Under the pieces are notes generated by a model. The model searched no databases. It was not told the origin of the DNA and saw only the letters and a list, made by a program, of their open reading frames with translations. A DNA stretch of 64,000 nucleotides. It comes from Armatimonadetes bacterium DC (lineage in GTDB: Bacteria; Armatimonadota; Fimbriimonadia; Fimbriimonadales; GBS-DC). This document shows, one piece after another, positions 11,839 through 64,000 of this stretch. Position numbers and translations under genes: made by a program. Position 1 is the first letter of the stretch. Each line of letters begins with the position of its first letter. The stretch spans positions 1-64,000 of the forward strand of contig LDYB01000020.1 in assembly GCA_001442985.1 (NCBI GenBank). The letters run 5' to 3'.

Positions 11839-12654
11839 TCAGCCCTGATTCCGCACGAAAAACATCACATATTCGTGTTTGAACACATACAGCCCATCGC
11901 GCAGAGCGCGATAACGCCAGAGCGCATGCTGACCCCGCTTGCCCCGATTCTCCTGAATATCCTTCACGCAGAGACTCTTGAGCGTGTAGCCCAGTCGCAT
12001 CAGGCGCTCCATCGCGTAGAACCCCAGCGGTACCCATTCCCCTTTGGCGTATTTATCCCCGATGACCAGCACCAGATAGCGTCCCGGCTGAAGCAGAGGC
12101 GTGAAGTTGCGGGCGACCTGTTCCAGCTGTGTCAGAAAGGTTTCCACATCGGGCGCATTAGAGAGGTCCTGAGGCGAATCGCTGAAGCGAATAATATCAT
12201 GATAAGGAGGGTGCAGAATGAGCAGATGCGCATGCTCAAATCCCCACTCGTCCATCAGGGTACGCAGACTTTCAACAGTAGCAGGCTGGGTGCTATCGCC
12301 CTGGAGCAGGGCAGTCCGCACCTCATAGGGGTTTGCTTCCGCATGCACGCGCTGGAGACTCTCTTCCACGAGGGTTGGGTTCAATTCCACCCCTATCGCG
12401 TGGCGTCCCAGCCGGCGCGCTTCAATAAGGGTTGTGCCCGAGCCAGCGAAGGGATCGATGACCAGTTCGCCCTGGCGCGTGAATCGACGCATCGCCTGAT
12501 TGGGAATTTGTGGCACAAAGTTGCCCCAGTAGTCGCCTTTGTGTGTGCCCTGATTATCTCGCTTTCCCAGAAGCCACAGGCTGTCGGTAATCAGGTCCGT
12601 GTAGGTACGCCACTGGCTCAGGTCCAGCTCGTGGAAGGGTTCTCGCCCGCGCAT
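11839..12654 (-). CDS. Solitary DNA methyltransferase (N4-C/N6-A family)
   Basis: 271 residues. The SAM-binding motif I DPFAGSGTTLIEARRLGRHA (about 67-86) comes first, and the catalytic motif follows as LHPPYHD near 146-152, a His in place of the usual D/N/S. This order is that of alpha/gamma-like rather than beta-class enzymes. No restriction gene adjoins it, so it may be a regulatory or anti-restriction methyltransferase. The target site cannot be predicted. TACAAT stands exactly 7 nt before the ATG, indicating a leaderless mRNA. Confidence 0.82.
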   Translation of the reverse strand: MRGREPFHELDLSQWRTYTDLITDSLWLLGKRDNQGTHKGDYWGNFVPQIPNQAMRRFTRQGELVIDPFAGSGTTLIEARRLGRHAIGVELNPTLVEESLQRVHAEANPYEVRTALLQGDSTQPATVESLRTLMDEWGFEHAHLLILHPPYHDIIRFSDSPQDLSNAPDVETFLTQLEQVARNFTPLLQPGRYLVLVIGDKYAKGEWVPLGFYAMERLMRLGYTLKSLCVKDIQENRGKRGQHALWRYRALRDGLYVFKHEYVMFFVRNQG

Positions 12655-13817: not shown

Positions 13818-14315
13818 CTACTTTCTGTGTGCCGCAGCGTACATTCCGCGGATGTAGATAATCTGCCCCGCGTGATAGTAGTCATGCTCTGCCAGCATCA
13901 GCAGCAGCTTGCCCGTTTCCATACGCCCCATGCCCCATGTGGGACGCTCCACGAGCAGGTCGTCGTCAGTGAGCGGGGCAAGCACATCGAGCGTGGTTTC
14001 GTAACCTTCCTGTGCAATCTGTAGCGCCGCCTGCAGGTTGCCCCCCATCGCCTTAAAGCGATGCTCCATCGCCACCCAGTCCACTGAGCCTTCACCGAAC
14101 GCAGTGGAGACCTGCACCAGCTTGTCTGCGCCCGTGTGAAAAATTATCTTCAGAATGGAGCCATCCGCCCACGAGTATCCCTTGTAGCCTGTTGGGGGAA
14201 TCCACAGGGCTTCCTCCTCGGTAAGGTTTTGCACCGCTGTTTTGAAGCTGTGGTACTTACTGCCTTCGTAAGCCTGAACAAGCAGTTCTCGGATAAAGTT
14301 CACCTGTGTTCTCAT
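13818..14315 (-). CDS. DinB-like four-helix protein
   Basis: 165 residues matching the DinB/YfiT metalloenzyme-like fold. Candidate metal ligands are His in IIFHTGADK and in AEHDYYHAGQI, the usual three-His pattern. Members include thiol-dependent transferases and stress proteins, and no precise role can be given. TAGGAG ahead of the ATG overlaps the stop codon of the duplicated mscS fragment, so this gene originally followed mscS. Confidence 0.75.
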   Translation of the reverse strand: MRTQVNFIRELLVQAYEGSKYHSFKTAVQNLTEEEALWIPPTGYKGYSWADGSILKIIFHTGADKLVQVSTAFGEGSVDWVAMEHRFKAMGGNLQAALQIAQEGYETTLDVLAPLTDDDLLVERPTWGMGRMETGKLLLMLAEHDYYHAGQIIYIRGMYAAAHRK

Positions 14316-14323
14316 CGCGTACT

Positions 14324-14499
14324 CCTATGCGAGCGGTATCTGGTGTTGTCGGGCGCTCTGCAGGAGATGGGCACGCAGGGCGTCCTGCACAATTGTACCC
14401 GCTGACGGCTCCGCACCCGCTGTGATGCGAAACAGATAACGGCTGGCTTCCAGCGTGAGCGGTCAAACCCAATTTCAATCGCAATCTTCTGGGGGACTA
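14324..14499 (-). pseudogene. Duplicated 3' fragment of mscS
   Basis: Bases 14324-14464 equal 16490-16630 (the last coding bases of mscS and its stop) with one mismatch in 141. Bases about 14466-14499 then resemble 16730-16767 of mscS (TTCAATCGCAATCTTCTG is exact), so roughly 100 bp between the two blocks has been deleted. The fragment joins the end of the endonuclease gene to dinB. It is the left arm of a direct repeat bracketing the R-M genes. Confidence 0.9.
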
Positions 14500-15186
14500 T
14501 TCTGAAAGCCCATGTTCTCGGCGCAAACGCGCTATCTCTTCCCGAATTGCGTCTACCACTTCGGGGTTGGCAATTTGCCTGGTATTATCCTTCTTTATTG
14601 AAAATACAATAAAGACCCGCCCACCCACCTGTTTCTCAAATCGGCGATGCGACTCTGCCATCCACTCATGCCACTTGTGTGCTTCAGGGAGCTGCGCGTA
14701 GCTCACCGGCTTGTTCTGAATACCGATGTAGCGCTCACCCACCTTGATGTAGAAGTCTATGTTGTATTTCCTGTCCCACTCATCAGGCGCAGGTTCCATC
14801 TTAACTTGCAGAAGCGTCTCCAGTTGCTCGTAAACGGTCTTCTTCTCTCTGAGATAACCCTCAAAAGTGCGCTTTATTACCACCTCATACACATACTGAA
14901 TACAGTCTTCTTCGGTAATTGCCTCTATCTCGGCACGGAGCTGTTCACTGATTTTGACATAAAGCCTGCGTCCTATCTCGTTGAGGTGTTCCTCCATCGT
15001 GTCAGCCAGCATCTTTTGCGTGGGACGCACTTTTTCAAAGTAGTAGCGCTCCCATTCTTCCAGTGTGCGGGGGGCACATTCACGGATGCTTTCCGAGAGC
15101 TTGCCCACATAGTGCGGGCGGTTATATTGCCAGCGATTGAAGGCAATATTCAGAATCCACTCCTTAGACGAGCCTCTGGGTTCCAT
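14497..15186 (-). CDS. Type II restriction endonuclease, MjaI-like
   Basis: 229 residues from the ATG at 15186 (MEPRGSSKEWI); an earlier in-frame ATG at 15234 would deepen the overlap with the methyltransferase. YVGKLSESIRECAPRTLEEW and NIDFYIKVGERYIGIQNKPV resemble blocks I recall from the MjaI family (CTAG-cutting). The second has the D...(x)xK layout of a PD-(D/E)xK site, with Asp near 142 and Lys near 158. It overlaps the methyltransferase stop by 23 nt, so the pair is translated together. Specificity for CTAG is inference from family resemblance. Confidence 0.75.
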   Translation of the reverse strand: MEPRGSSKEWILNIAFNRWQYNRPHYVGKLSESIRECAPRTLEEWERYYFEKVRPTQKMLADTMEEHLNEIGRRLYVKISEQLRAEIEAITEEDCIQYVYEVVIKRTFEGYLREKKTVYEQLETLLQVKMEPAPDEWDRKYNIDFYIKVGERYIGIQNKPVSYAQLPEAHKWHEWMAESHRRFEKQVGGRVFIVFSIKKDNTRQIANPEVVDAIREEIARLRREHGLSE

Positions 15187-16450
15187 TTCGTCGTCGCTCC
15201 GCCTCAATAAACCGCTCGCGATAGCGGTACTCACGCTCCCTGTCCGCTTCTGCCAGCCCCATCTCGATCATTTTTCGATTCACAAACAACCGATTGGTCA
15301 GATAAAGGTACACGGGCACAGGCTGTCGTGCGCTTTCAGGGGGGCACTCAAACCGCAATAGCACTCTTTTGCCGACTACATAAGTTTTCAAATATCCTAA
15401 AGCCTGCTCTTGAAGCGCCGCAGGAACCCGCACGCCCAGCAGGGCAACCTGCAGCCCCTCTTCCGTGAGCAGGACAGGGTTTCCTGCCGCAAAATGAGCA
15501 ACCCCCACGACTCGATAGGTCGCCTCAGGTTCCACACGCACCTGCTTCGGCTCTATCAGGGGCGTGGCATCTTTGATACGGGGCGTGTACCCCTCTGGCG
15601 GCTCTACGGGAGGCAGCGCCTCCTCACGCTGGTAAATGCTCACTCTCGGGGGGAGCAGACTGTCCATCCCCAGCCGCTGACGAATCAGGGGCAGGTAGTC
15701 TACCTGTATCTCGTAGCCAATTGCATTACGGTTCAATTCAAGCGCCGCTTTGAGCGTTGTACCGCTCCCTACAAACGGGTCCAGCACAGTTTCCCCCACA
15801 AACGAGAACATCCGTATCAGTCGGCGCGGCAACTCTTCAGGGAACATCGCCTCATGAAACGCCTGCCGCTCGCCAGCAAACTGCCAGTGCCCGCTGAAAA
15901 AGGTTTTCCACTCGTCTGTAGTAAGCGCCGACGCTTCTCGCACTTCAGGCGAAGGAGACGCCCCTTTGCCCGGTTTACGAAACAGCAAGATATACTCGTA
16001 ATCCAGCTCCACGATACCGTTCGGCGGATAGGGAAAAGACCCCATCACCACCGCTCCCCCTGAAGGACGCATCGTGGTCTTCTTTTGCCAGATGATGGCG
16101 CCCAGATAATCAAAGCCTATTGTTTCGCACTGCGCAATTATCTCTGCATGGAGCGGGATCACCTTATATTGCCCATAGATTACTGCGCGGGCGAACTGGT
16201 CGCCGATATTGATGCACAACCGCCGCCCCGGCATCAGCACGCGCCAGCATTCACGCCATACGCGGCTCAAGTCGTACAGATACTCGTGCAAGGTTTGCCC
16301 GTAGCCGATCTGATGGGGCACGCCGTAGTCTTTGATATGCCAGTAGGGGGGCGAGGTAACGACAAGCGCGACGCTTTCACTGGGCGTCTCCACCATGTTC
16401 CGACTATCGGCGAGGTAAACCTTTGCCGCGCAAGTGTCGGTTAGCGCCAT
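15164..16450 (-). CDS. N4-cytosine DNA methyltransferase with nuclease-like C-terminal domain
   Basis: 428 residues. Catalytic motif IV is TSPPYWHIKDYG (Ser33-Tyr36) and SAM motif I DPFVGSGTTLKAALELNRNA lies near 222, the beta-class order; SPPY is typical of N4-cytosine enzymes. The last 115 residues form a separate domain resembling staphylococcal-nuclease OB folds (ALGYLKTYVVGKRVLLRFE, LFVNRKMIEMGLAEADRE, RYRERFIEAERRR), but the nuclease Arg/Glu/Arg set is not evident, so it may only bind nucleic acid. It protects DNA from the overlapping downstream endonuclease. TATACT lies 7 nt before the ATG, a leaderless arrangement. Confidence 0.88.
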   Translation of the reverse strand: MALTDTCAAKVYLADSRNMVETPSESVALVVTSPPYWHIKDYGVPHQIGYGQTLHEYLYDLSRVWRECWRVLMPGRRLCINIGDQFARAVIYGQYKVIPLHAEIIAQCETIGFDYLGAIIWQKKTTMRPSGGAVVMGSFPYPPNGIVELDYEYILLFRKPGKGASPSPEVREASALTTDEWKTFFSGHWQFAGERQAFHEAMFPEELPRRLIRMFSFVGETVLDPFVGSGTTLKAALELNRNAIGYEIQVDYLPLIRQRLGMDSLLPPRVSIYQREEALPPVEPPEGYTPRIKDATPLIEPKQVRVEPEATYRVVGVAHFAAGNPVLLTEEGLQVALLGVRVPAALQEQALGYLKTYVVGKRVLLRFECPPESARQPVPVYLYLTNRLFVNRKMIEMGLAEADREREYRYRERFIEAERRRNGTQRLV

Positions 16451-16457
16451 CCGTAGC

Positions 16458-16463
16458 AGTATA
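16458..16463 (-). promoter_or_regulatory. -10 box TATACT of the R-M operon
   Basis: TATACT with exactly 7 nt to the methyltransferase ATG. The same stretch (GGTGAGGTATA...CTACGGATGG) survives in the decayed cassette at 18315-18344. Confidence 0.65.
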
Positions 16464-16489
16464 CCTCACCGTATGCACAAGCCGTTGCG

Positions 16490-16630
16490 CCTAGGCGAGC
16501 GGTATCTGGTGTTGTCGGGCGCTCTGCAGGAGATGGGCACGCAGGGCGTCCTGCACAATTGTACCCGCTGACGGCTCCGCACCCGCTGTGATGCGAAACA
16601 GATAACGGCTGGCTTCCAGCGTGAGCGGTC
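16490..16630 (-). repeat. Right arm of the 141-bp direct repeat flanking the R-M cassette
   Basis: These bases are the 3' end of intact mscS and match 14324-14464 in 140 of 141 positions (difference G16494/T14328). The near identity suggests a recent duplication. Confidence 0.93.
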
Positions 16631-17294
16631 CCTCGAGGGAGGGTGGAGTCTTCAGGGAAGGATGTTCGAACGCGGCGAGGCTCTGCTCCAGCCACTGACG
16701 GGCGGAGTTCAGCTCTATCGTGCTAGCAATCCCGACTTCAATCGCAATCTTCTGCTCGCCGCGACTATGGTTGATCACACGGGTAATGCTGCTGTTGGCG
16801 AGCGTGATGAGCCTGCCCGAATCGTCGCGAATGCGGGTGATACGCATGCCCATCGTTTCCACCACGCCGCTGACGCCATCAATCGTGACATACTCTCCCA
16901 CCGCGAACTGGTCTTCCACGAGAATAAAAAAGCCGTTCAGCACATCGCGCACAATCTGCTGGGCGCCGAAGCTGATGGCAAGCCCCGCCACCCCCGCCGT
17001 CGCCAGCACAGGACCCAGATTGACCCCCAGAATGCTCAGAATCGTGAAAATCACCACGAACAGCAGCACATAGTTCAGCACGCTCACCAGCAGCGCGGTG
17101 ATGGTCTGCACCTGCGCCTGCCGTCGGGAGGAGAGCTCTATTTTTCGGGTGAGCGCGGCGACGGTCGCCTGAATGGCGCGCCCGCCAATCCAGCGAGCCA
17201 CTGCTGCGCCCAGCAACACGAGCAGAATTTTGCCCGCGCTCGCCAGCACCGTATCGAGATGACGCTCCCATAGCGACTGCACAAACTCCCACAT
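16491..17294 (-). CDS. mscS: Small-conductance mechanosensitive channel (MscS family)
   Basis: 267 residues from the ATG at 17294 (MWEFVQSLWER); the longer frame adds an unlikely N-terminus. Three membrane segments (about 16-35, 62-85, 90-112), the third being the pore helix VLATAGVAGLAISFGAQQIV, are followed by the beta domain VGEYVTIDGVSGVVETMG typical of MscS. It releases solutes during osmotic downshift. TATACT lies 10 nt before the ATG. The last 141 bp are duplicated beyond the R-M genes. Confidence 0.92.
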   Translation of the reverse strand: MWEFVQSLWERHLDTVLASAGKILLVLLGAAVARWIGGRAIQATVAALTRKIELSSRRQAQVQTITALLVSVLNYVLLFVVIFTILSILGVNLGPVLATAGVAGLAISFGAQQIVRDVLNGFFILVEDQFAVGEYVTIDGVSGVVETMGMRITRIRDDSGRLITLANSSITRVINHSRGEQKIAIEVGIASTIELNSARQWLEQSLAAFEHPSLKTPPSLEGPLTLEASRYLFRITAGAEPSAGTIVQDALRAHLLQSARQHQIPLA

Positions 17295-17304
17295 CGCGTG
17301 GGGG

Positions 17305-17310
17305 AGTATA
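17305..17310 (-). promoter_or_regulatory. -10 box TATACT of mscS
   Basis: TATACT 10 nt before the ATG at 17294; only a few bases of leader would remain and no ribosome site is visible. Confidence 0.55.
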
Positions 17311-17398
17311 CCCGTCCGCGGAAAAAGTACCAATTCACCTTGTGACGGAGAAAAGCGGTTTAGAACCTAGCATGACTGCATCTTGGAACTGAACGCCT

Positions 17399-17842
17399 CT
17401 ATTCAGGAAACATCTGAACAGGGTCTAAGCGTCGCACTTCGGGAATGAGGTCAAAGTGCCTGTCCGCCGACACGATGTAAGGGATACTATGGCCCAGTAT
17501 TATGGCTGCATGAATCGCATCGCGTGCATGAACCCCCTGCGACGCATACTGTCTGAATATCTCCATCGCACGCCGCATATCATCCAGCGTCACAGAATAA
17601 ACAACACTCACCAGAGCGATTAGTTTTTCTGCGACTTCCACCGCTTCCCGATACCGCTGCAGAGCTCCGTATCGGTGAAGAATTTCCTGAATAATCTCGG
17701 TATCGATGGCGGCACTCAGCGTCCCGCTCGCGACCGCTTGTAATACCTTCTGGCAAGGAACGCGATAAGGATGCTCCGCACCTACGGCGTACATAACGAT
17801 GTTCGTGTCGAGAAAGACAAGGCTCTGTTGCGGCAGGCTCAT
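17399..17842 (-). CDS. PIN-domain toxin (VapC-like)
   Basis: 147 residues of a PIN-domain ribonuclease. The acidic cluster is visible: Asp in FLDTNIVMYA, Glu in DTEIIQEILHRY, Asp in HARDAIHAA and Asp in VSADRHFDLI. VapC-type enzymes cut RNA in a Mg-dependent way when released from their antitoxin. Its ATG overlaps the stop of the upstream antitoxin gene by 4 nt, the standard toxin-antitoxin layout. Confidence 0.9.
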   Translation of the reverse strand: MSLPQQSLVFLDTNIVMYAVGAEHPYRVPCQKVLQAVASGTLSAAIDTEIIQEILHRYGALQRYREAVEVAEKLIALVSVVYSVTLDDMRRAMEIFRQYASQGVHARDAIHAAIILGHSIPYIVSADRHFDLIPEVRRLDPVQMFPE

Positions 17843-18069
17843 TCTTCAAGCACTCCCCGAATCGTCTCCCGCTCCATCTGCTCCCAGTCCGCCACAGGCA
17901 GGTTCATCGCGAACAGTTCCTGCACGAGGCGCAGGCGCTCTTCAGCAGAGGTCGCTGACTCGTGGTAGTGAATCTCTACCTCTACGGGTGCACCTTCTGG
18001 CAAGCCCGGCTCCGACTCCAGTACGATGGTCTTCCCGACAACTCGTCCCCTGAAAAGTAAAGTGGGCAT
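17839..18069 (-). CDS. Antitoxin of the PIN toxin
   Basis: 76 residues. An N-terminal beta-rich part (LLFRGRVVGKTIVLE...LPEGAPVEVEIHY) resembles AF2212/DUF104 or AbrB-like antitoxins, and a helical acidic C-terminus ends EQMERETIRGVLEE, suited to wrapping the toxin. It precedes the PIN gene with an ATGA overlap. TATACT is only 6 nt before the ATG. Confidence 0.8.
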   Translation of the reverse strand: MPTLLFRGRVVGKTIVLESEPGLPEGAPVEVEIHYHESATSAEERLRLVQELFAMNLPVADWEQMERETIRGVLEE

Positions 18070-18081: not shown

Positions 18082-18127
18082 CCTTGAGAGTGTCCGAGAA
18101 CCAGATGCTTCCGACCGCACCAGAAAA

Positions 18128-18344
18128 CGGTTATACTGCCAGCGATTGAAGGCAATATTGAGAATCCACTCCTTAGACGAGCCTCTGGGTTCCATTTTGT
18201 CGTCTCTGCGCGTATTGCCCATAGGCGACCGCGCAGGCGAACGGGTCGCCGATATTGATGCACACCCCCGCCCCGGCATCAGCACAGCGCCAGCATCCGC
18301 GCCATACGCGGCTGGCACCATCCGTAGCCCTATACCTCACCGTG
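18128..18344 (-). pseudogene. Decayed second copy of the R-M cassette
   Basis: Three blocks match the intact cassette in order and orientation. 18128-18210 matches 15119-15201 (endonuclease start). 18213-18312 matches about 16167-16269 (methyltransferase N-terminal part). 18315-18344 matches about 16445-16473 (promoter and start). Two internal deletions of about 0.97 and 0.17 kb removed the rest. Both copies diverge from each other just beyond GTGAGGTATA, which marks one end of the cassette. It fills most of the gap between the antitoxin and alpha-2-macroglobulin genes. Confidence 0.9.
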
Positions 18345-18355
18345 TCAGGGAAGCC

Positions 18356-21300
18356 TCACTCCCGCACCACAATCCGAAACGCCTCGCTGGAGACGCTGAA
18401 CGGCGCATACATTCCCCACAGGCGCGCCGGCAATATGCTGTATTCGCCAGGCACCTCCGCACGCACCAGAAAGGCGAACCGATGAGTATCGTGGTACCAC
18501 CCCCAGCGGGACTGAAAGCTGAGCGCGCGGTCGTCCCGTATCTCGCTGTAGTCGCTCGCCCACCAGCCTGCTTTCAGAAACGCCTCGGTGTCCACGGGCG
18601 CGCAGCCTGCAGGGAATGGCGCCTCCAGCACCGAGTAGTCCCAGTCAGACACATTGCGCGGGCGTGTGAGTTCCACCTCAACCCGAAGGAGCGTGCCCGT
18701 GCGCACGACGCCCCCCAGCGGAATGGGGCGGAGCGTCTCGGAAGGTGTCAGCACATCCTGCGACGGCTGGAGCGCGTAAAGGCGCATTCGGATAACCCCC
18801 GACTGCCTCTCTGCATAGGTGAGCGGATGCCAGCTGGTGAGCCGCGCGACCACAATCGGCACACCGCTTTCCGCACGCAGGCGAATCAGGTTCTCACCCC
18901 TGCGTAGCCACTCGCTCTGCAGGCGCACTTTGCCCTCAAACGCGGGCACGGGTTTGTCGTTCACCCACACCTGCACGCGGGGTTTGCCACGAGCGTCGGC
19001 TCCTTCATAGCGCTGGATATACGCCAGCAGTGCCTCAATCGCGAGCGCACTATCATAAGAGGAGTACCACGCCTCGCCATACTGCGTCAGCACCAGCCCC
19101 AGCACGGTCTTCTCCACCATCTGCCGGTAGCGCCGCGGCGTCAGGTTCAACTCACTCAGGAACGGCTCCAGCTTCAGCAGCAGCCGAAGCGCTCGCGCCT
19201 GACTCGCCACCTTCTTCACAAACAGGTCGTCCCGCTCCTCACGGAACCAGTAGAGGGCGTCGGCGGTCTCGCGGTAGTCGTTCTGCAGGGCGTTCCAGAG
19301 CGTGCGCAAATGCTTCCGGGCGTTGGGCAAATCGGACCAGTGAACCAGCAGCATCATCATCTGCATGCGCGGCTCGTGAACCCAGGGTCCCTGCATGTTG
19401 AGGCATTGCTGGGTCATGCGGTTCAGCAGGGCTGGCTCTTCACGCAGGGCGTCTGGAGCGGGTTCGCCCATCTCCGCAAGGGCTTCCAGCACCTCCAGCA
19501 GGGGGTCTATTGAAGGCGAGGGCAATTCCTGTAGCGCCTCGCGATACTTTCTCACCTCCGAATCTGCCATGCGTTGCAGCACGCTCAGCCCGCGCTCGTA
19601 GAGCGGTTCGGGCACAGGCACGCCCGCTTGCTTCGCCCGGTACAAGCCGCGCATGGCGTAGGCGGTAATCCATGGCTCTGGCTCTTCGGCTTCCCACCAG
19701 CCCCAGCCGCCTTCGGGCGATTCCAGCTCCGCAAGGCGTTGAAGCCCTGCTTTGAGCGCCTCCTCCACGCGCTTTTCCAGTTCAGGGGGCATCGGCTCGC
19801 CCCGCTGCCGATAGACCGCCCGCGCCAGCACCGCAGGCACGAAGCGGCTCACCGTCTGCTCCACACAGCCGTAGGGATACTCTATCAGATAGTCCAGCCG
19901 CGCGGTCAAAAACTGGAACAGGGTCGGCTGAACCTCTATTTCCAGCGTGCCCAGTTCGTGTCGGCTATCGGGAAGCAAGTTCATCACAATCTGGCGTTCC
20001 GCTTTGAGGAGCAGGACGCGCGTGGCGACCTGCGGTGTGGCGGCGGGCTTGACCTCAAATTGGCGTTCTTCGGCGTCGCGGAGCCTGCCGTTGACCTCCC
20101 GCGCCGAAACCCGTATCGTTTGCACCCCCACCTTGCGAGCGCGATAGGGGTAGCTCAGCGTGCGCGAGTCGTTGGGCGCAACGGTCAGCTGCTGGCTCTG
20201 CGTGCCTTCGGGCGTGTGCCAGACCACCTGCACGGTTCGGGGCTGATGGGTGTTGTTGCTCACAATCGCGCTGAGTTCGGTTTTGTCGCCTTCCACCAGC
20301 CACAGGGGCGTGCGCAGGCGCACCATCAGGTCTTTGGCGCTTTTGATGGCAGCTTTCGCATAGCCGATCTGCGTTTTGAGCGTGTGTCCCCACACAGTGA
20401 GCCGCCACTCGGTCAGGTTATCGGGCAGGCGGAAGGTGGTTTGCGCCACGCCCTGGGGGTTGGTGCGCAGGTGGGGCAGCCAAAAGGCAGTGTCGGGGAA
20501 GTCGCGCCGCGTGTCCTCCACCTCGCCCTTGTCGCCCTGTAGCGCCAGATACGGCGCGGAAAAGCTGGTGGACACTCTGTTGAACCTGTGCGCATAAAAG
20601 GCGTGACGCAGCCGGTGTGGGTCGTCTTCCATAATGGAGTAGATGCCCTCGTCCACCACTGCGAGCGACAGCTCCGCAGGCACGGGTCGCCCCTGCGCGT
20701 CGGTCGTTTGAATGCGTACCTGCACCGTGTCGCGTGGCGCGTAGCGGGCCCGATCCGTCTGAACTCTGATGTTGAGGTCGGCGTTTCGCGTGCCTACCGC
20801 CACATCGAGCGTGCGCTGGTAGAGCTGCTTGTTGCGCACCATACACACGCTCACATAGGCGGTAGGGATTTGCGCTGTCGTGAGCGGGATTTTCACGCGG
20901 GTGAGACTCCCCGTCGCTTTCACAACCTGCGACTGGAAAAGCCGCGCCCCCTCCAGACTCACATAGTACACCGCGTCGGGATAGGGCGAACGGATGGCAA
21001 CCTCCACGCTCTCACCGGGCATGTATTGCTCTTTCTGGAGGCGTACCTCCAGGGGGTTTCGAGAATCGGGCACTTCCTGCGCCCAGTAGCGGCGCCCGAA
21101 AATCCAGAGCGTGGTGCTTTCCTCACATCGCCTCCCCGTGGGGTCCTGAGCCGAGACCACCAGTTGCCACTCGCCCGATTCGGGAGGCGTCCACTCCAGC
21201 ACCGCTTTGCCCCGACTGTCGGTCTGGAGGGTCTGGCGGAAGGGATACTCCGTTACGCGATAGCGTCCTGCCCAGGTGAATCGCCCCGCCTTCACCTGCA

Positions 21301-54908: not shown

Positions 54909-56009
54909 TTAAGAATTTAGCAACAGTTTTAAATACTGACTAACTACGCGTTCTTCTTCAAACTTTTCTAACCACTCACGAGGCACAGGTTTGCGCTCAC
55001 CCCGTAGCACACGCAGAATCGCCTGTGCCATCGCTTCGGCATCCCCCACAGGCACTAACTCGCCATACTTGCCGCCGTCCAGAATTTCCTCGGGTCCACT
55101 GCGACAGTTCGTGCTGACCACTGGACAACCGCACGCCATCGCCTGTATCAACACATTCGGCAGCCCCTCATACTGCGAAGAAAGCACAAACACATCGGCG
55201 CGCGCCATATATCGGAACGGGTTCGGGTCAAAACCAGGCAGGTCAAAATCACCCTGAATGCCCAGCTCGGCAGCTAACTGCTCAAGCTGGGGGCGCAGCT
55301 CCCCCTCGCCGAGAATCACCAGTCGGGCAGGCATCTGACGACGAACACGCGCAAACGCATGAAGGAACGTAGGAAAATCTTTCGGGGGGGTGAGCCGTCC
55401 AACCCCTAACACAATAGGGAGATGCTTATTAACAAACCAGGGATGCTCCACCGATGCATCGCGCAGCTGGTACAAATCACGGGTGATTGCAGGATTGTAG
55501 ATTACATGGACCTTCGATTGGGCGCGGGGTATCAGGCGTGTCAGATCTTGTTGTACGCCTGCAGAGACTGCTATAATAGCATCTGCCAGCGGATAGCACA
55601 GGGGGATAAGGCGACTCGCGAGGCGCTTCTTCCGCGACGCGCTTTTCCGAAAAGCGGTTGTGGGAGTGGTGGCTTCGCGTATCACCAGCCGTATGGGACA
55701 GCGCGCGAGGCGTCGGGCAATCACGGCGACAATATTCGCCTCTCCCAGTGTGGACAGAAGCGCTATGGGCGGATTGCGCCGCAGATAACGCGCCAAAGGC
55801 ACAATCGTGCGCCACATCGCGCCCGACTGGAGGCGCACGATCGGAACATCGCGATGAAGCAGGTGTGCATGCTCACCTTCGATGGTCTTCGCCGTGATGA
55901 CGCAGGTCTCGATGCCCCGCTGGTGGAAGGCGTTCGCCAGCGTGAGCATCACCCGCTCGGCACCGCCCCCTTCAAAGCTAGGCACAAACAGTGCAACCTG
56001 AGCCATCAC
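54909..56009 (-). CDS. GT4-family glycosyltransferase
   Basis: 366 residues. FVPSFEGGGAERVMLTLANAF at the N-terminus and [25 protein letters not shown] near 260 are the GT4 signature. Its C-terminal third is closely similar to the partial gene at the right edge of the window. Its start overlaps the stop of the preceding secreted glycosidase-like gene by 4 nt. Confidence 0.9.
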   Translation of the reverse strand: MMAQVALFVPSFEGGGAERVMLTLANAFHQRGIETCVITAKTIEGEHAHLLHRDVPIVRLQSGAMWRTIVPLARYLRRNPPIALLSTLGEANIVAVIARRLARCPIRLVIREATTPTTAFRKSASRKKRLASRLIPLCYPLADAIIAVSAGVQQDLTRLIPRAQSKVHVIYNPAITRDLYQLRDASVEHPWFVNKHLPIVLGVGRLTPPKDFPTFLHAFARVRRQMPARLVILGEGELRPQLEQLAAELGIQGDFDLPGFDPNPFRYMARADVFVLSSQYEGLPNVLIQAMACGCPVVSTNCRSGPEEILDGGKYGELVPVGDAEAMAQAILRVLRGERKPVPREWLEKFEEERVVSQYLKLLLNS

Positions 56010-63647: not shown

Positions 63648-64000
63648 TCGGGGAGTAGCAAGTTGAGATACTGCTGCGCCACCTGATCTAACTCAAACTG
63701 CTGAAGCCACTCGGCGGGAACAGGTTCGGGTGGCTCGCGTAGCGCCCGCACAATCGCGCGCGCCATCGCCTCTGCATCGCCTACAGGCACAAGCGCGCCG
63801 TACCGACCGCCATCCAGAATCTCAGACGGACCACTGGGGCAATCCGTACTCACTACGGGACACCCACATGCCAGCGCTTGAATCAATACATTCGGCAATC
63901 CCTCATACCACGAGGAGAGCACAAATACACTCGCACGCTTCATGTACCGAAATGGGTTCAGATCAAACCCTGGCAGTTCCACATCCGCGGCAACCCCTAA
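63644..64000 (-). CDS. GT4-family glycosyltransferase (partial, C-terminal part)
   Basis: The last 119 codons of a gene running past the right edge. [20 protein letters not shown] followed by [20 protein letters not shown] resembles the GT4 at 54909-56009 residue for residue in this region, so the two are paralogues. Confidence 0.88.

Follow-up and report, generated by a model that had tools for sequence, protein, structure and literature searches.

A MjaI-family type II restriction-modification (R-M) cassette, bracketed by direct copies of the mscS 3′ end, probably inserted at the mscS/dinB junction without a transposase and with a long duplication of its target; we put the probability of this reading at about 0.6. 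The window, meaning the whole 64-kb stretch of DNA analysed here, carries the following features around the cassette:

13818..14315, minus strand: DinB-superfamily gene, downstream of the mscS remnant (PF12867, DinB_2, 4.8e-10)
14324..14464, minus strand: dinB-side copy of the mscS 3′ end, 141 bp (140/141), with the mscS stop and the start of the dinB Shine-Dalgarno-like AGGAG
14465..14491, minus strand: further diverged mscS remnant abutting the R stop (25/28 over 14464-14491 to 16727-16754)
14497..15234, minus strand: R gene, MjaI-family restriction endonuclease (RE_MjaI, PF09568, 2.3e-46; ORF start GTG 15234)
15164..16450, minus strand: M gene, beta-type N4-cytosine/N6-adenine DNA methyltransferase, overlapping R (N6_N4_Mtase, PF01555, 7.1e-41)
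16451..16489, minus strand: cassette end upstream of M, with a leaderless-type -10 box, GGTATACT, plus 17 bp
16490..16630, minus strand: mscS-side copy of the 141-bp repeat
16491..17333, minus strand: intact mscS (PF00924, 1.2e-18)
17399..18069, minus strand: VapBC-like toxin-antitoxin pair (PIN gene 17399-17842, PF01850, 1.5e-11; antitoxin-like ORF 17839-18069, which has no Pfam match)
18101..18126, minus strand: possible decayed duplicate of the alpha-2-macroglobulin gene 3′ end, abutting rm1 (20/26 to 18447-18472)
18128..18343, minus strand: rm1, a decayed second R-M copy (R 5′/M 3′ piece, M N-terminal piece, M start and upstream sequence)

The two copies of the 141-bp repeat, reported in the initial annotation and re-found here at the same identity, start 2166 bp apart. 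Of the two, the right one is the genuine end of the intact mscS, and the left copy has the same mscS stop codon 9 bp ahead of the next gene, which confirms that dinB directly follows the copied stop; this "dinB" belongs to the DinB_2 superfamily and is not DNA polymerase IV. The sole mismatch (T at 14328, G at 16494) is a synonymous change in the final codon of mscS. The more diverged mscS sequence described beyond the left copy is a 28-bp piece (10.7% diverged), in which the codon changes are conservative (EVGI to EIGF) and from which the 141-bp copy is separated by the absence of 96 bp of mscS. The 28-bp piece, the 96-bp gap and the 141-bp copy add up to an original duplication of 265 bp or more. 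At a cut-off of at least 95% identity over at least 50 bp, the 141-bp repeat is the only near-identical direct repeat in the window, and chance is excluded as its source. A 248-bp direct repeat of 75% identity (55003-55250 and 63738-63985) is probably paralogous coding sequence.

The R and M genes lie between the 141-bp copies, as had been claimed; they overlap and are the only genes there, and Pfam domain assignment of the ORFs revealed no transposase or integrase. Neither this cassette nor its homologue in JP3_11, described below, has terminal inverted repeats (inverted-repeat test, p = 0.48). R and M are both apparently intact; comparison with the JP3_11 homologue makes ATG 15186 a more likely R start than GTG 15234, and the M protein contains the motifs SPPYW and DPFVGSGTT. 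TATA boxes similar to GGTATACT occur upstream of M in two relatives (G008 and G011), and the 17 bp adjoining mscS at this end of the cassette match neither flank copy. The cassette resembles the MjaI/MthZI family of type II R-M systems, whose specificity we take to be CTAG, in that R matches PF09568 and M is an SPPYW-type methylase, and by analogy CTAG is its predicted target. The window contains 11 CTAG sites against 79 expected, a scarcity that is uninformative as a sign of specificity because the loci of the relatives are similarly CTAG-poor. No relative of R with a solved structure was found by sequence. Plasmid-borne members of the MjaI family are about 26-30% identical to R, including the enzyme of the Methanothermobacter plasmid NC_001337 (30%), whereas the window cassette is chromosomal. 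A phage or virus was considered as a vehicle and rejected, since the cassette has no match in phages or viral contigs and plasmids yield only these 26-30% relatives. Elsewhere in the window, a further N6_N4_Mtase-type methylase gene (11839-12654, minus strand) is flanked by the genes for aldehyde dehydrogenase and alanine racemase, and no neighbouring endonuclease was recognised.

The initial annotation made no mention of rm1, which lies between the alpha-2-macroglobulin gene and the vapBC-like pair, 1.7 kb from the cassette. It consists of three pieces, matching the intact cassette at 94% over 84 bp (15119-15202), 89% over 102 bp (16167-16267) and 86% over 35 bp (16438-16472), and has shrunk by internal deletions while keeping the order and orientation of the intact copy; no further R-M copy of comparable strength was found in the genome. 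The two differ at 19/219 sites (about 9%). All codon positions are affected, the pattern that neutral decay would produce from the separation of the copies onward. The possible alpha-2-macroglobulin duplicate beside rm1 is a weak, suggestive match of a kind reached by roughly 1% of background windows, and the sequences of relatives do not strengthen it. Divergence in the 28-bp mscS piece (3/28) is like that of rm1, and the 141-bp repeat (1/141) is significantly less diverged than either (Fisher p = 0.015 and 0.0007, respectively). It follows that the repeat either arose later than the rest or has been homogenised by gene conversion or unequal crossing-over, and its 140/141 identity, being younger than the remaining structure, does not by itself date the insertion.

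The sequence of events that we favour would begin with entry of the M and R genes, a type II cassette of about 2.0 kb, into the mscS/dinB junction without a transposase. With 265 bp or more from the mscS 3′ end duplicated in the process, neither mscS nor the beginning of dinB would have been disrupted. Later an internal deletion would have removed 96 bp from the dinB-side copy, whose terminal 141 bp may have been kept near-identical to mscS because the repeats recombined with each other, by gene conversion or by unequal crossing-over. In this order of events rm1 would be an older cassette copy, which may have decayed by deletion because the second copy supplied the same methylation. The support for insertion comes from the repeats themselves, an uninterrupted junction in the relative HRbin15, the JP3_11 cassette, the lack of inverted repeats and of a shared target core, the scatter of cassettes over unrelated loci in relatives, and precedent in other bacteria. 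Against it, rm1 is collinear with the cassette, in the same orientation and less than 2 kb away, which would be rare for an independent insertion in a 2.85-Mb genome. The insertion reading also needs an extra homogenising step, as the 28-bp piece and rm1 look to be of the same age and the 141 bp do not.

Family relatives, labelled Fimbriimonadales or Armatimonadetes in the collection, provide one uninterrupted counterpart of the junction. In HRbin15 (G002), which belongs to another genus of the family, mscS and a DinB-family gene are adjacent and 39 bp apart, and its own R-M cassette is found at another locus. This junction may favour insertion, but at genus distance and not at strain level: MscS is 58% identical to that of the window and the intergenic sequence is different. 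In the remaining family genomes examined, mscS and dinB lie apart.

A second bracketed cassette is present in the MAG JP3_11 (G009, locus L100), of the same family and another genus. The homologous R-M pair lies between a cysteine desulfurase gene and uvrC, flanked by a 75-bp direct repeat of the desulfurase 3′ end (75/75, 100%). The uvrC-side copy runs in-frame to a different ending (GTSQA and a stop) that overlaps the uvrC stop codon, and the desulfurase gene copy now ends in KAPVTP; ends of this kind are expected if the cassette entered among the last codons of the gene and duplicated 75 bp. The repeat spacers are 2025 bp in the window and 2056 bp in JP3_11, each holding one cassette. The 570 kb of DNA from the family that were scanned are a non-random sample, retrieved around cassettes and the genes beside them, with much of it unrelated to R-M genes. 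Five near-identical direct repeats of at least 50 bp were found in it, and the window and JP3_11 repeats are the only ones among them with spacers of 1-4 kb. The 141-bp and 75-bp targets have no common core. A desulfurase-uvrC junction without a cassette, the presumed empty site of JP3_11, was not found in the relatives examined: the uvrC loci of eight genomes lack the desulfurase, and the genome closest to JP3_11 (G011) has no full match to desulfurase or uvrC. JP3_11 is the cleaner instance and raises the probability of insertion in the window; two cassettes bracketed alike at different genes suggest that the cassette genes insert themselves without a transposase.

The initial annotation had offered a tandem duplication of the R-M/vapBC/mscS block with reciprocal loss as the other reading, which we regard as possible and less probable than insertion. 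The cassette would first have stood between the alpha-2-macroglobulin gene and vapBC-mscS, and the block would then have been duplicated in tandem; the first R-M copy would have decayed to rm1, and from the second block vapBC and the greater part of mscS would have been deleted, leaving 28 bp and 141 bp ahead of dinB, the latter homogenised afterwards. This account gains from rm1, which sits in the predicted place, order and orientation, collinear and upstream of vapBC-mscS, from the agreement in neutral divergence between rm1 and the 28-bp piece, and from the spread of rm1 differences over all codon positions, which fits decay from the duplication onward. The window thus holds R-M and mscS remnants in tandem order, and no remnant of a second vapBC was found in it. 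However, the account requires a deletion of roughly 1.3 kb with one end only a few bases from where R terminates, the 17 bp that separate the cassette from mscS match neither expected flank, and the JP3_11 cassette is just as tightly bracketed with no R-M remnant nearby. A broader version, in which the "long target duplications" of R-M genes are generally the last trace of tandem duplications with no insertion involved, seems to us doubtful. If it were true, the addictive R-M genes and a gene end would be the sole survivors of such events, and the window would display the process half-way, with the reciprocal remnant kept.

Capture of the cassette from a related strain appears improbable. Here incoming DNA with R-M beside mscS would have recombined homologously at mscS, while its other end was joined illegitimately, and mscS would have been left duplicated. 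With the 28 bp as a donor allele, this would account for conservative codon changes beside a near-identical 141 bp, and also for a second copy adjoining rm1, yet the donor arrangement was found in no relative and no other family genome examined has the cassette beside mscS. Integration by a site-specific integrase, with the repeats as attachment sites, is very improbable: both duplicated stretches are gene 3′ ends, a usual position of such sites, but the copies enclose no integrase, the window contains no tRNA and the two repeats have no core in common. Least probable of all is an assembly artefact, since, even though the genome is a draft (2.85 Mb, 26 contigs), the copies and their flanks differ, both lie inside a 293-kb contig, and a second, separately assembled genome has the same arrangement.

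For the insertion reading there is precedent. Long duplications around R-M genes have been inferred from genome comparisons, first in Helicobacter. Nobusato et al. in 2000 reportedly described R-M insertion with long target duplication in Helicobacter pylori, and Furuta et al. in 2010 are said to have described the same mode; we know of no resolved mechanism for the movement of transposase-free R-M genes. In the present cases, as in those insertions, an R-M unit that lacks both a transposase and terminal inverted repeats is bracketed by a direct duplication of host sequence in the order of 100 bp, and targets and duplication lengths vary (here 141 bp remaining of at least 265 bp, and 75 bp); the differences are the Fimbriimonadales host, the MjaI-family cassette and the decayed second copy alongside. 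Insertion of R-M units with target duplications that are long, in the order of 100 bp, and variable is documented (PMC3874152; PMC3031569), and is the mode that Kobayashi and colleagues described (PMC3874152; PMC3031569; PMC1643837). Amplification of R-M genes between direct repeats has also been described (PMC3031569); the window repeats would allow tandem amplification or clean excision by unequal crossing-over, a process that could explain the homogenised 141 bp, and in contrast to the published amplification no amplified R-M array is present in the window's genome assembly. The transposase-free mode is thus already known in other bacteria, and what is new here are the Fimbriimonadales and MjaI-cassette instances; a full-text literature search found no paper on such an insertion in Fimbriimonadales. 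With one cassette family bracketed in this way at different genes of a single bacterial family, and a decayed sister copy adjoining one of the two cassettes, the window and JP3_11 form a small system where the sequences of close strains can distinguish insertion from duplication.

MjaI-type R genes were detected in 18/291 genomes of the phylum (E <= 0.001), seven of them in the family, and among relatives the cassettes occupy unrelated loci with no informative synteny between genomes. Between G009 and G011 the flanking chromosomal DNA is 88-92% identical and the R-M DNA only 72%, and the two cassettes are therefore not one inherited locus. No flanking repeats above 18 bp were found at the family cassettes of G001, G002, G004, G008 and G011, and none that convinced at ten more distant MjaI loci of the phylum. 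A 26-28 bp flank pair in G003 was rejected as a target duplication, as it resembles a dispersed palindromic element; in that genome, palindromic-type dispersed repeats (GCCAGGC...GCCTGGCGTTCCG) lie on both sides of the MjaI-type R-M pair (L179, 6434-6486 and 9090-9171). Other repeats near cassettes are an 862-bp direct repeat, 100% identical, to the right of the G011 cassette (L098, 10624-11485 and 17140-18001), and a 104-bp tandem duplication (99%) about 3 kb from the HRbin15 cassette (L093, 5048-5256).

Cassette fragments were found in G012 (L238, 3853-4207), G016 (L239, 4818-5060) and G007 (L108, 603-1007), the first of which has collapsed by internal deletions in the manner of rm1. In G004 (L095, 7661-8946) M is frameshifted near its end and no R is detectable, and from its sequence this cassette may be losing its endonuclease. 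A counterpart of the G011 cassette flank in G009 (L236, around 901-950) appears to retain some 50 bp from the 3′ end of R, inside which the alignment stops, and is perhaps the remnant of a lost cassette.
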